Assembly: GCA_020809425.1 (NCBI GenBank)
Contig: JAGGDC010000003.1
Span: 1 to 64,000 of the forward strand
DNA: 64,000 nt
Reading direction: 5' to 3'
Source of the DNA: Candidatus Synoicihabitans palmerolidicus
GTDB lineage: Bacteria > Verrucomicrobiota > Verrucomicrobiia > Opitutales > Opitutaceae
This document shows positions 14,441-20,545 of this stretch, one piece after another. The notes under the pieces were generated by a model. It was given only the letters and a program-made list of their open reading frames with translations. It had not been told where the DNA came from and searched no databases. Made by a program: the position numbers and the translations under genes. The stretch's first letter is position 1. The number at the start of each line of letters is the position of its first letter.

Positions 14441-16032
14441 CTACGTTGGAGCGGTCGATGCTGGGTTTTTGAAGGCATACCCAGCGGCCAATTTGGTATA
14501 CTCCCTCACCTGATCCGCGATCCAATCTGCCCCGAGGTCGCGTTCTCTGGCCATCACTGCGGCCACTTGGGGGGCGGCGTCGATCGATCCTATCGCATCA
14601 AGCAGCAGCCAACGAGTCCGCCGAGCCAACACATCCTCCACCGTGCGCGCCATTTCATGCCGGCAATGCCAGACTACTTCAGCCACTGTCAGCGTCAGAC
14701 GCTCGTTGAGCAATTTATGCGCGTCCGTCCCCGTCTTCGCCAACTCTGCGCTCGCCGCAGCATCCGTGCCGTAGTTATCGCTCTTGCCGTGATCATGCAC
14801 CGTGCCTGCTCCTCCTGCTCCATGAATCCGTAGATCAATAGTCTGGCAGGAACGGGCGACTAGTTCCGCCACAATTTCAACCTGCTCCACCACGTCCTCG
14901 GCCATCTTCCGAGAAGTCGTCCACTTTCCCCCCGTGACGCTGATCAGGCCACTTTCACTTAGCATAATCGTGTGGTCTCGAGATAGGGCCGCGGTAGAGT
15001 TTACACCATTTTTGCGCACCAACGGGCGAAGTCCCGCATAGACACTCAAGACATCTGCATCCTTGGGTCCAACGTCAGATAGCGTTGCGCATGTTCCATC
15101 ACGAAATCCCGCTCTTCGGCTAGCGCTCTGGGTTCCAACACCGCCGTTTTACGTGGAGTATCCGTCGTGCCAACGATGACCCGATTTTGCCACGGGACCG
15201 CAAGCAACACGCGGCCGTCACTGGTTTTAGGGATCATGATTGCCGTATTCCCAGGCAGAAACTTTTGCGGCAAAACGATATGGATTCCCTGGCTCACCGC
15301 CACCACCGGGTTCGCATCCTCATCGCCGATTTGTCGTAGCTCATCCACGAATACACCAGTGGCATTGACCACCGACTTGGTTCGGAGCTCGAACTCCTCT
15401 CCCGCTTCCGCATCCCGTAGTCTGGCGCCTGTGACCCGTCCTTCCCGCTTTATCAGCGCGATGCACCGACAATAGTTTGTGACCACCGCACCTTGTTCCG
15501 CGGCCGTCATGGCGAGGTGAATGGCTAGCCGGGCGTCATCAAATTGACCATCGTGATAAATCACTCCATCGACGAGCCCCTCGGGCTCCACGGAGGGAAT
15601 CCGCTTCATCGTCTCCTCCCGGGACAGCCATCCGGATGGATCGAGTTCCAAATACCCGGCGAGTTGATCATAGACTTTCATGCCTATTCCGTAAAACGGA
15701 CCCTCCCACCAGTTGTACGTGGGAATCACAAATGCCATGTCTCGCACCAAATGGGGCGCATTTTTCGCCAACCTTCCGCGTTCTCTCAAGGCTTCCAGCA
15801 CAAGGGTGATGTTGCCTTGACGTAAGTAGCGCACGCCGCCGTGCACCAACTTGGGCGAACGGCTGGAAGTACCCTTGGCAAAATCCTCCGCCGCCACCAA
15901 TGCCACTCGATAGCCCCGCGAGGCGGCATCCACTGCCATGCCGAGTCCGCTGGCCCCGCCGCCCACGACCCAAAGGTCGAAAATCTCTCCTGATTGCAGT
16001 GCCGCTCAATTGGCCGATCGCTCGAAAATCAT
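14441..16032 (-). pseudogene. glpD: Aerobic glycerol-3-phosphate dehydrogenase, two lesions
   Basis: FAD enzyme that oxidises glycerol-3-phosphate to DHAP at the membrane. Read from the ATG at 16032 (overlapping the glpK stop as ATGA), the frame is MIFERSAN-stop-AALQSGEIFDLWVVGGGASGLG. The TGA at 16006-16008 stands where TGG would fit. The dinucleotide motif GGGASG, VIYHDGQFDDARL and GTTDTPRK are recognisable. A 1-base loss near 15050 (LTLDP|KDADVLSVYAG) breaks the frame again before the C-terminal domain. It would otherwise be about 530 residues. Confidence 0.9.
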
Positions 16033-17534
16033 GCTGGAGTCTCCTCGTCGATCCATGCTTTCGCTCGTTGCACCGCCCGGGCCCAATCATGGCGCAATCC
16101 CTCCATATCGCTTACCTCCCGTTTGAATCGCCGCGACTCCTTCCATTGCGCCGCAATTTCCGATCGGTTCTGCCACCATCCAATTCCCAGTCCGGCCAAA
16201 TAAGCCGCCCCCCAGGCGGTGGTCTCGACCTCAATCGGACGCACCACATCACACCCCAGCAAATCGGCCTGAATTTGCATCAGTTCATTACTCCGTGATG
16301 CGCCCCCATCCACGCGTAGTTCTTTCAATGCCAAGCCACTGTCCTTCTCCATCGCCGAGATCAGATCACCACTTTGCAGCGCGATACTTTCCAAAATAGC
16401 GCGACAAATATGGGCCCGATTCGTACCGCGCGTGAGTCCGACCAAGGTACCCCAGGCAAAGGGATCCCAATGCGGTGCGCCCAATCCCGTAAACGCCGGC
16501 ACCAGCACCGCTCCCCCCGCGTCCGGTACTGTCCCCGCCTCTTCACTAAGTTGTTCGGCACTTTCCACCAACCGTAATTCATCCCGCGCCCACTGCACTG
16601 CCGCGCCCGCCATAAAGACGGAACCTTCCAACGCGTACTCCATTCGTCCATTCAGGCGCCACGCCACCGTCGACAGTAAATTGTTACGCGATCGCACGAG
16701 GGTGGTTCCGGTCTGCATCAGCAGAAAACACCCGGTTCCGTAGGTGTTCTTGGCCATGCCCATTTCATAACAACCTTGACCAAACAACGCCGCTTGCTGA
16801 TCGCCGGCCACTCCGGTGATAGGAACCTCCGCGGTTGATAGTCCCGCCGCCACTCGCCCAAAATTCCCCGCCGAATCCCTCACCTCCGGCAACATGGCCC
16901 GGGGTACTCCGAAAAACGTCAACATCTCATCATCCCACTCGCCCGTTTCGATGTTCAATAAAAGAGTTCGGGACGCGTTACTCGCATCCGTAGCATGCAC
17001 AACACCGCCCGTGAGGTTCCAAATCAACCAAGTATCGATCGTGCCAGCCAGTAGTTCACCACGCTCGCCTCGTTCCCGCAATCCAGGGTGTTGGCGAAGC
17101 AGCCAAGCCAACTTGGAACCGATAAAATACGGATCTAACCTCAAACCAGTGATTTACGCTATCCGCGACTCATGGCCTTCCCGTCGCCATTGCGCGCAAT
17201 CATCCGCCGTACGTCGATCTTGCCACACGATGTCCGGGGCGACGGCTTTGCCTGTAGCCCGCTCCCATACGACCAAGGTTTCGCGTTGGTGGGTCACGCC
17301 GATAGCCGCGATGTCTCCAGCCACCACCCCGGCCTGTTTGAGCGCCGCATCCATGGTGTCGCGCTGAGTCTGCCAGATCTCGTTGGGGTCGTGCTCCACC
17401 CATCCCGGATGCGGATAATGCTGCTTAATCAACCGCTGGGCCACGGCCACATTATGTCCTAGATTATTGAATACAACAGCGCGGGACCTGGTGGTGCCTT
17501 GATCCAGCGCGAGAAGATAACGGAGTTCACTCAT
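16029..17534 (-). pseudogene. glpK: Glycerol kinase with one in-frame TAA
   Basis: FGGY kinase that phosphorylates glycerol. The N-terminus MSELRYLLALDQGTTRSRAVVF holds the phosphate-1 loop; WQDRRTADDC and, after the break, TGLRLDPYF-like, [29 protein letters not shown] and [18 protein letters not shown] follow. The single lesion is TAA at 17154-17156 within SRIA-stop-ITGL, where Lys (AAA) would be usual. Total length about 501 residues matches the family. It is first in a glpK-glpD operon. Its natural TGA end argues that TGA is a stop here. Confidence 0.92.
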
Positions 17535-17563: not shown

Positions 17564-18587
17564 TCATGCGTCCCGGTACACTCCCATTGGCGACGTCAAG
17601 CGGCTAGTGCACAGTTTTTTGTATAATAGCATGAAAGACTTCAGCGGGAGACTGTCCGTCGAGCCCGATGCGAGGGCGATTTGGCCTTTGGTGACGGTGT
17701 TAAAGTCGATGCCTTTAGGGAAGTATTCCCGGATCAGACCGTTGATATTCGCGACCGCACCGCGCTGCCAAGGGCTGTGTGGATTGCAGAAGTAGACCGC
17801 CACTTTTGTGGCAAGGGAGAAGGCGGCATGTTGGGCCATTTCGCGGCCGTTGTCGTAGGTGAGGGTCTTGCGCAGGTGGGCGGGCAGGCGTTTGAAGGCC
17901 CGGATGAGAGCGTGGGCGACGCTGATTGCGTCTTTGGCGCCGCCCAACGGGACGATCATCACGTAGCGGGAGACCCGTTCGGTGATGACCAAAATGGCGG
18001 TGTGATTGCCCGCACCCATGACCAAGTCGGCCTCCCAGTGTTCGGGCACCTCCCGGCGCTCTACCTCAGCGGGTCGCTCGCCGATATTGATCGCGCCCGG
18101 CAACTGGCCCGAGAGCTTGCCCTTGGCGCGGGGGGCGGGACTGCGCCGGGGCTTCTTGCGCCGCAAATAAGCGATCAACTCCTTCTTAACCGAGCCTTTG
18201 GCGTGGACGTAGATGAAGTCGTAGATGGTTTCGTGGCTCACGCGTCGGGTCAAATCAAGGCCATGACGTCGTCTCAAGGCGACTTCGATTTGCTTGGACG
18301 TAGCGCCGGTGGCAAACAGGGCCAGCACCTCGTCGCGCAAGGCGGGCGTGTCGGCGACTTTGTTGCGCACGGCGCACTTGGGCCGACGGCAAGCGCGAGT
18401 CTGCGCATCCATGCCGCTGTAGCTGGAGCGCCCGCCGTTGCGGGTGATCTCGCGATTGACCACCGAGGCGTCGCGGCCGAGGGCGGCGGCAAGCTGAGCG
18501 CCGCTTTTGCCCTGGGCCCTGGGCCAAACCGGCATGAATCGCCTCGCGTTCCTTGGCGGTGATGCGCCGTTGTATTTTTGCCACCAC
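17564..18587 (-). pseudogene. IS30-family transposase, broken by 7-bp duplication
   Basis: N-terminal HTH (MVAKIQRRITAKEREAIHAGLAQG ... SGAQLAAALGRDASVVNREITRNGG) followed by an integrase-like core: HWEADLVMGAGNHTAILVITERVSRYVMI, TYDNGREMAQH, and FCNPHSPWQRGAVANINGLIREYFPKG with the catalytic Glu position (the usual E is inside GAVANINGLIREY). The first 24 residues are one frame off from the rest. GCCCAGGGCCCAGGGCAAAAGC contains CCAGGGC twice, and removing one copy restores the frame. The ends of the element could not be fixed with confidence. Confidence 0.85.
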
Positions 18588-18634
18588 TCCGACATCCTCT
18601 ATTCTGCGCCCACGACGCTAGCGCGGAGTTTTTC

Positions 18635-18686
18635 CCAGAGAGAAGACGACCGGCCCGGCAAGCCGGGCCGGTCGTCTTCTCTCTGG
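18635..18686. repeat. 25-bp perfect inverted repeat with 2-nt centre
   Basis: CCAGAGAGAAGACGACCGGC (first 20 of 25 bases) and its exact complement flank the dinucleotide AA. No T tract follows on either strand, so it is not a standard terminator. It lies between the IS30 gene and IS copy B. Confidence 0.95.
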
Positions 18687-18757
18687 CTTGTGTATAGCTA
18701 GAGCCTATCCCGCTGGTACAAGTCGTTGGTGATAAGCTGTAAGCGTGATAAAAAAGA

Positions 18758-18790
18758 GGCCTAACCCGGGAGTAAATCCTGGGTTAGGCC
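18758..18790 (+). promoter_or_regulatory. Subterminal hairpin of IS copy B
   Basis: GGCCTAACCC and GGGTTAGGCC pair perfectly over 10 bp around a 13-nt loop. It is the counterpart of the copy A hairpin at 1972-2004, with paired substitutions. Confidence 0.65.
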
Positions 18791-18808
18791 CAAAAACGGC
18801 GTCTATGC

Positions 18809-20332
18809 TTGGGTGTGAAACTAATACACAAAGCCGTCGGAGATGAAATTGCCCTGCAGAGCTGGCTGCGTCCAGCGCTTACGACTGTCGGGCCGAACAA
18901 AGATTACGGGCAGTTTCGCGAGCAGCTCGATGCGGTGGACCGAGTGCTGCGAGCCAGCCACCTTGAATCGATGGCGATGGACTTCGCGCGGGTGGGCTTC
19001 GAGTCGGTCGACGCCGGGCAGCTGCGCCGTCGCCTGGAGTTCGCGCGCAAGGCGCTGCGGGTGAATATGTTGCGTATGCTGTTGGGAAACATGCCTTTTC
19101 GGCAACTCTCGCGCACGATTGCATCGAGCGACTGGCTGGCCGACTTCTGCGGGGTGCGCACGATTGAGGGCATCAAGGGCGTTTCCAAGAGCGTGTTGGA
19201 GCGAGCTTCGCAGTGCTTTACCGCCGAACTGGTGCGGTGGATGGGTCAGGTGTTTATCGAGATGGTCGCCGAGGCGGACCGGGCGGCCGAACTCGGTCTG
19301 GCCGAGCCGCAGGCGATGGAGACGTGCCTGGTGGACTCGACCTGCTGGCCCACCAACATCCACTTTCCGGTGGATTGGGTGCTGCTGCGCGATGTGAGCC
19401 GAACCCTGCTCAAGGCGGTGATCCTGATCCGCCGGGCCGGCATGCGTGCACGCATGCCGGCGGAGCCGGAGGTCTTCGCCCGACAGATGAACCGGCTGTG
19501 CATTGAGATGACGCACCCCCGACGGCGTGCGAATGCCAAACGAGCGCGCAAGCAGGTGCTACGCAAGATGAAGCGACTGTTGCGCACCATCGGTGAACAC
19601 GCCCAGCGACACCGCGACCGCCTGGACCAAGAGTATGCGTCGACCCACACCTCCGCGCGACAGGCCGCTCGCATCGTCGAATGCATCGTCGAATGCATCG
19701 ACGAATGCATCGACGCGATGTTGGCTCAGATGCCCGCAACGATCAACCAGGCCCACGAACGCATCATCGGCGCGCGACCAGTGCCCAACGCCGAGAAGAT
19801 CCTCCGCGTCTACGAACCCGACGTGCAGACCGTGGTCCGGGGCAAGGCGTCCGGCGAGGTCGAGTTTGGCAACACCCTCATGATCAGTGAGAACGTGACG
19901 GGATTGATCACCGATTGGCAGTTGTATCAGGGAATGACTCCGGCCGAATGGCGCCAGTTGAGCGAAAGCTTTGATCGTCAGAATCAGTTCGACGTGAGCA
20001 CGCCGATCACCGCCGCGGGCACCGACCGGGGCTTCTCGACCAAGCGGATGCGTCAGATCCTGGCCGCTGCGGGCATCTACGACGCGACCTGCCCGCGCGA
20101 TCCTCAAGAACTGAAGCAACGTATGACGGAACCAAAGTTCATCCAATTACAACGCCGCCGGGCCTAGACTGAGGCCCGCATTGCCATCCTCAAGCAGCGT
20201 CAAGGCAAGCGTTTGCGAGCCAAGGGCTTTATGCACCGCTACCTCACGATAGCATGGAGCGTCCTCGGCCACAACCTCTGGCTGATCGCCAGACTGCTGG
20301 CCGACCAGCCGCCACTGGCCCAAGCGGCCTGA
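18809..20332 (+). pseudogene. IS transposase, copy B, near-complete with amber stop
   Basis: Full 507-residue frame except for TAG at 20165-20167, where copy A has TCG (RRA-stop-TEARIAIL versus RRASTEARIAII). The stop removes the segment with the last catalytic acidic residue, so transposition from this copy is probably lost. It retains the 15-residue segment missing in copy A (ASSDWLADFCGVRTI) and the LSESFDRQNQ segment. Confidence 0.85.
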
Positions 20333-20545
20333 GGTTATCACCAAAATCACTCCGTCACGATGCCCAATCGGATCACCGGAGGGCTTCGCGTGGCTGCGCT
20401 CCGGAGCACATCCACATTGAGGATTCCTTCACGCAACGTATTTGCGTTTCAAGAGGTGGAATCCGCTCTTTCCGCTTCATAATCCTGTGAACGAAAATCT
20501 CCTCACGATCCTACGCACGAAAATCGGGGTAAATGGGACAGGCTC

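Follow-up and report, generated by a model that had tools for sequence, protein, structure and literature searches.

A perfect hairpin in the leader of an IS30-family element of Candidatus Synoicihabitans palmerolidicus: concerted change of its arms and a possible role at the element boundary

Candidatus Synoicihabitans palmerolidicus belongs to the Opitutaceae and lives in symbiosis with an Antarctic ascidian (PMC8636102). We analysed the first 64,000 nucleotides of contig JAGGDC010000003.1, referred to here as the window; the assembly is a metagenome bin of ten contigs and 4.40 Mb with an estimated completeness of 70%, in which the polyketide synthase contigs are repeated about five times. 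The G+C content of the window is 56–61%. An inverted-repeat search returned a palindrome with two arms of 25 nt that are 100% complementary and a 2-nt AA spacer (Table 1), exactly as the first-pass annotation had described it, while the runner-up short-loop inverted repeats within 3 kb had arms of only 13–14 nt. The predicted RNA fold of the palindrome region was far more stable than that of shuffled sequences (−74 kcal/mol against a mean of −47, z = −6.7). No T tract flanks the palindrome on either strand, so that it lacks the U tract that follows the GC-rich stem in an intrinsic terminator, and we agree with the earlier remark that this is not a normal terminator. A search of the palindrome against Rfam gave no match at the gathering score. 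On the minus strand of the window, a glycerol kinase gene (16029–17534), apparently split into frames of 126 aa and 371 aa, adjoins the right end of the IS30 element. A putative glycerol-3-phosphate dehydrogenase gene (14441–15966, minus) is present as two overlapping frames (306 and 202 aa), which reflect either real decay or assembly indels.

Table 1. Coordinates of the hairpin and of the features around it in the window.
Feature	Position	Strand	Basis and remarks
Terminal repeat at the right end of the IS30 copy (+ strand: GCGACGTCAAGCGGCTAGTGCACAG)	17590–17614		Element consensus; just upstream of the glycerol kinase start
IS30-family transposase gene, broken	17564–18595	−	rve and HTH_38 domains; NF033563 on sister copy; frame shift
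Leader hairpin, 52-bp palindrome	18635–18686	− (transposase sense)	Arms 18635–18659 and 18662–18686; inverted-repeat search, genome copies and IS30 relatives
IS30 leader remnant outside the hairpin; element cut off here	18687–18699	−	Comparison with intact leaders
Neighbouring IS, probably ISNCY/IS5-like, which replaced the IS30 left end	18700–20345, outer limits approximate	+	Sub-threshold NCBI ISNCY match, E 2.5e-40

Judged from the aligned sequences, the palindrome is almost certainly a constant component of an insertion sequence of the IS30 family. Copies extracted from the genome with their flanks had sequence in common on both sides of the palindrome, and the consensus of 39 copies gave an element of ~1.28 kb with the ends GCCGCAGTCCAACACTGAGTGCACAG and, inverted, GGCGGCGTCAAGCGGCTAGTGCACAG. 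The terminal inverted repeats, in the range of ~20–30 bp, are imperfect, and the two ends of this consensus have AGTGCACAG and scattered further matches in common. The hairpin lies ~160 bp inside the left end and ~45–50 nt upstream of the GTG start of the transposase gene. It had been placed between two IS elements, which is not quite right, since it lies inside one of them, between the left end and the transposase gene. In an intact sister copy the transposase reached 256 bits with NF033563, the NCBI IS30 model (cut-off 80), which identifies it as an IS30-type transposase. When an intact IS30 leader was scanned for promoters and terminators, no sigma-70-type promoter was matched, and the hairpin did not score as a U-tract terminator.

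In the window copy the conserved transposase start is a GTG at 18585–18587 or 18588–18590, and a duplication of CCCAGGG near codon 23 shifts the frame. The same tandem duplication is present in many of the IS30 copies of this genome and is scattered over the copy tree; it is therefore old, recurrent or exchanged between copies. The window copy has also lost its left end: position 18699 is the last of its leader, and the ISNCY-like neighbour follows directly. The transposase of that neighbour occupies 18809–20167 and beyond, and an inverted repeat is found at 18726–18738 and 20332–20344. The IS30 leaders of two other copies and of the window copy, the latter near 18700, are cut by sequences ending in GAGCGTGTCCCA or GAGCCTATCCC, which seem to be termini of other IS.

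The first-pass annotation saw no other copy of the palindrome. This is true within the window but misleading for the genome, where a search allowing up to 3 mismatches located 80 half-sites, 39 of them forward and 41 reverse; the same pattern reversed, used as a control, gave 0 and 1. A protein search gave 164 transposase matches, many of which are pieces of single copies; 61 of the loci read hold more than half of the gene. Among the leaders read, 43 carried the hairpin, 4 were half-deleted and 7 fully deleted. One arm had been lost between AAGCC direct repeats in the four, and in the seven the whole hairpin had been lost between the GAGGA of an arm and the GAGGA before the start. The deletion copies have differing flanks and are scattered over a star-like copy tree, and they may represent recurrent deletions or derivatives that moved. 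The hairpin itself was found in forms of 39, 47, 52, 54 and 55 bp, with a GCTTGG or an inverted CCAAGC loop and a TT or AA centre; the exact AA-centred palindrome of the window is one of these several states. A coding role was considered, as the frame is open through the hairpin in several relatives, but it was rejected, since the 39-, 47-, 52- and 54-bp forms of this genome break the frame.

We aligned both arms of the 43 copies to a 19-nt consensus arm. Mirrored substitutions, in which both arms carry the same change, accounted for 10 cells in 9 of the 43 copies, the window copy included. One-sided cells numbered 11, several of them alignment effects of the length of an AG repeat. When the 3′ arms were shuffled among the copies, the mean was 0.34 mirrored cells and the maximum 5, and none of 10,000 shuffles reached 10. 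Divergence was 1.4% per site in the 3′ flank and likewise in the gene body. At this rate (43 × 38 × 0.0137) about 22 independent arm changes are expected, nearly all of them one-sided. The private substitutions in the transposase genes fell on codon positions 1, 2 and 3 in the ratio 76/70/76, and synonymous, nonsynonymous and stop changes (78/140/4) were close to those expected under the same mutation spectrum (68/148/6). The transposase copies drift neutrally, which makes it hard to attribute the mirrored changes to selection acting on individual copies. The assembly is probably a polished long-read bin, in which consensus errors may inflate some of the differences and account for some of the small indels; this concerns the large deletions and the pattern of substitutions to a lesser degree.

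The exact palindrome pattern was absent from 56 relatives because the stem differs between elements, and only position, loop and a covariance model led to the related hairpins. The closest transposases in the named genome collection were only 29–44% identical. A hairpin at the equivalent site was found in four IS30 elements from the same bacterial family (transposases 39–41% identical), in one further element (L130/L095), and in a second IS30 element of this genome (L085). Stems of the relatives are 24–25 bp long and perfect or nearly so, that of L085 11 bp; their sequences are unrelated to ours apart from the apex CCG-GCTYGG-CGG, and the L085 loop is inverted. When the seven hairpins were aligned, 92% of the cells were paired, 18 of 25 pairs had been altered on both sides, and only 2 cells were G-U; shifting the partner by one column reduced pairing to 45–48%. 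In the tree the hairpin-carrying elements group together as a single clade, moderately supported (87/83). The hairpin is missing from some 30 further IS30 elements that were compared, IS1086 and ISRme10 among them. Elements such as these two resemble ours in transposase domains, match to the NCBI model, size (~1.28 kb) and end repeats, but the IS30 members compared from outside this bacterial family have only short hairpins of 5–10 bp near the start and no 25-bp stem with a GCTYGG loop. In a Streptomyces plasmid IS30 (L154) an imperfect 18-bp hairpin stands directly before the transposase match; its distance and loop are different and we did not count it as equivalent.

A covariance model built from the seven hairpins was run on 252 genomes of the bacterial family, with up to 22 candidates scored in each, and had matches in at least 36 of them. 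Of the non-IS30 loci inspected, at least 12 had a hairpin that adjoined or overlapped the end of a transposase gene. The end belonged to an IS3-type OrfB at seven loci (L166, L168, L171, L172, L178, L182, L186), to an IS256-type transposase at four (L169, L177, L179, L184) and to an IS481-like one at L176, with L172, L179, L184 and L186 assigned by resemblance, without a domain search of their own. In 12 of 12 cases the hairpin was at the 3′ end of the transposase gene with the GCTYGG strand antisense to it, whereas the IS30 hairpin stands upstream of the gene with GCTYGG on the sense strand. In both arrangements the strand carrying GCTYGG is the one that runs from outside into the element, and the position between boundary and gene and the constant orientation hold for the IS30 leaders as well as for all 12 other transposase ends. 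Loop orientation is not strictly kept, however, as the apex is inverted in many copies of this genome and in L085. A general terminator of the host lineage was rejected as an explanation, there being only 0 to 10 copies of the apex pattern per genome outside ours. At four IS256-type loci (L169, L177, L184 and L194) the hairpin lies 9–10 nt past the transposase stop and has a constant 3×3 internal loop six pairs from the apex, the outer stem covarying freely. An intergenic repeat of ~110 nt (TCTGAGGCGTTGGTTGATGTGG...CAATCTCAGGCGGAGGGACGGACCGGCTTGGCGGTCC...), found at seven loci and others in further genomes of the family, has this apex too, in an imperfect hairpin that closes the repeat; many of these copies are at the ends of contigs.

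Hairpins are known to be created and maintained by template switching (PMC8794818). If synthesis switches between the arms, substitutions should be mirrored, loops inverted and stems lengthened, and in our copies we observed mirrored substitutions beyond chance, inverted spacers with symmetric stem changes, and changes that selection on the copy does not easily explain. We infer that the perfection of the arms is quite probably maintained by template switching during DNA replication. With the hairpin extruded, DNA synthesis would jump from one arm to the other as its template; this would carry a fresh mutation over into the opposite arm, invert the loop and lengthen the stem. Long-term selection would then retain the hairpin in active elements as a boundary barrier, where the stem, highly stable and perhaps cut by RNase III, would dampen transcription or translation entering from outside. 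Such a barrier is suggested by the position, the constant orientation to the boundary and the extreme stability; the hairpin has no U tract and is therefore no classical terminator, which counts against it, and we regard the barrier role as tentative, with the chances somewhat below even. The seven hairpin-less copies stand at different sites, and if they moved after the loss, the hairpin is dispensable for mobility in trans. As a whole, an IS30 leader hairpin kept up by template switching and acting as a boundary barrier is the best explanation we can offer, and one we hold with moderate confidence.

The paired changes could instead be compensatory mutations under selection on a regulatory structure of the transposase mRNA, with no part for DNA-level correction. 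A structured RNA had been among the early suggestions, and much of it fits: the hairpin is in the transposase leader, its position, loop and stem length are conserved in distant relatives, and the stem covaries. Nearly all pairs are strictly Watson-Crick, however, with almost no G-U intermediates (the 2 cells above), and this indicates upkeep at the DNA level. The mirrored changes are moreover private to copies whose transposase genes drift neutrally, and selection on the RNA leaves the loop inversions and symmetric length changes unexplained. We consider RNA-level selection alone unlikely.

About as unlikely is a further proposal, in which a portable hairpin module, with a free stem of ~25 bp, a fixed GCTYGG apex and always facing inward, would be common to IS30, IS3, IS256 and IS481-like elements. 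Its place of action would be the element boundary, where it would serve in replicative copy-out or be recognised by a factor of the host or of the element, its stem being free to vary since template switching keeps it perfect. Slightly less likely still is that the hairpin has a DNA-level role in transposition, such as marking one strand during copy-out replication. IS3, IS30 and IS256 use the figure-of-eight and minicircle route (PMC3299598), and the same apex in families with a common route, its constant orientation to the boundary and the strict Watson-Crick pairing would all suit such a role. Set against this, hairpin-less copies stand at several sites, the three families are also simply common, and most IS30 elements, including IS1086 and ISRme10, are without such a hairpin.

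It is improbable that the palindrome has no function at all, in which case a template switch in an ancestral element would have created it and nothing but later switches would have kept it perfect. The upkeep mechanism requires no selection and deletion forms are frequent, but despite this frequent deletion the same place and loop persist at 40% transposase identity, and the hairpin recurs in other IS families. The first-pass suggestions of abutted terminal repeats from an excised element or a MITE can be dismissed almost entirely: the 2-bp centre recalls an IS30 end junction, but the centres of other copies differ in length in the 39-, 47-, 54- and 55-bp forms, and in the genome half-site check the half-repeat was at no element end, as one part of the refuting condition set by the first-pass annotation required, and always inside the IS30 leader in the copies read, ~160 bp from the left end, so that it is neither terminal nor dispersed independently as a MITE would be.

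Several known systems bear on the template-switching and barrier account. Quasipalindrome correction by template switching (PMC8794818; PMC7202029) likewise produces mirrored changes, stem lengthening and loop inversion; here it would be seen in dozens of neutrally drifting natural copies and not in RNA genes or a laboratory reporter. Strong secondary structure ahead of a transposase transcript, or within its 5′ portion, is also described for ISPpu9 (PMC8450116) and IS200 tnpA (PMC12594629). Those are other IS families, while ours has one very long perfect stem with a common loop and free stem sequence, and regulation by it is only a candidate function. Literature searches found no description of this hairpin, and the paper on Candidatus Synoicihabitans palmerolidicus (PMC8636102) makes no mention of IS30, hairpins or palindromes.

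IS elements such as IS10 and IS50 are protected against impinging transcription. There too a hairpin lies between the element end and the transposase start and faces incoming transcripts; in our element the hairpin is not made by the element end, and hiding of the ribosome-binding site is only putative.

Selection and template switching are hard to separate as sources of paired stem changes. In this genome dozens of parallel copies of one palindrome drift neutrally, with their flanks as an internal clock and most arm changes mirrored, so that the mutational explanation becomes measurable in nature. The case is also a warning that covariation alone is no proof of a functional RNA. Finally, the common apex and constant inward orientation in unrelated IS families suggest that the mobile elements of one bacterial family have a boundary module that has not been described before.
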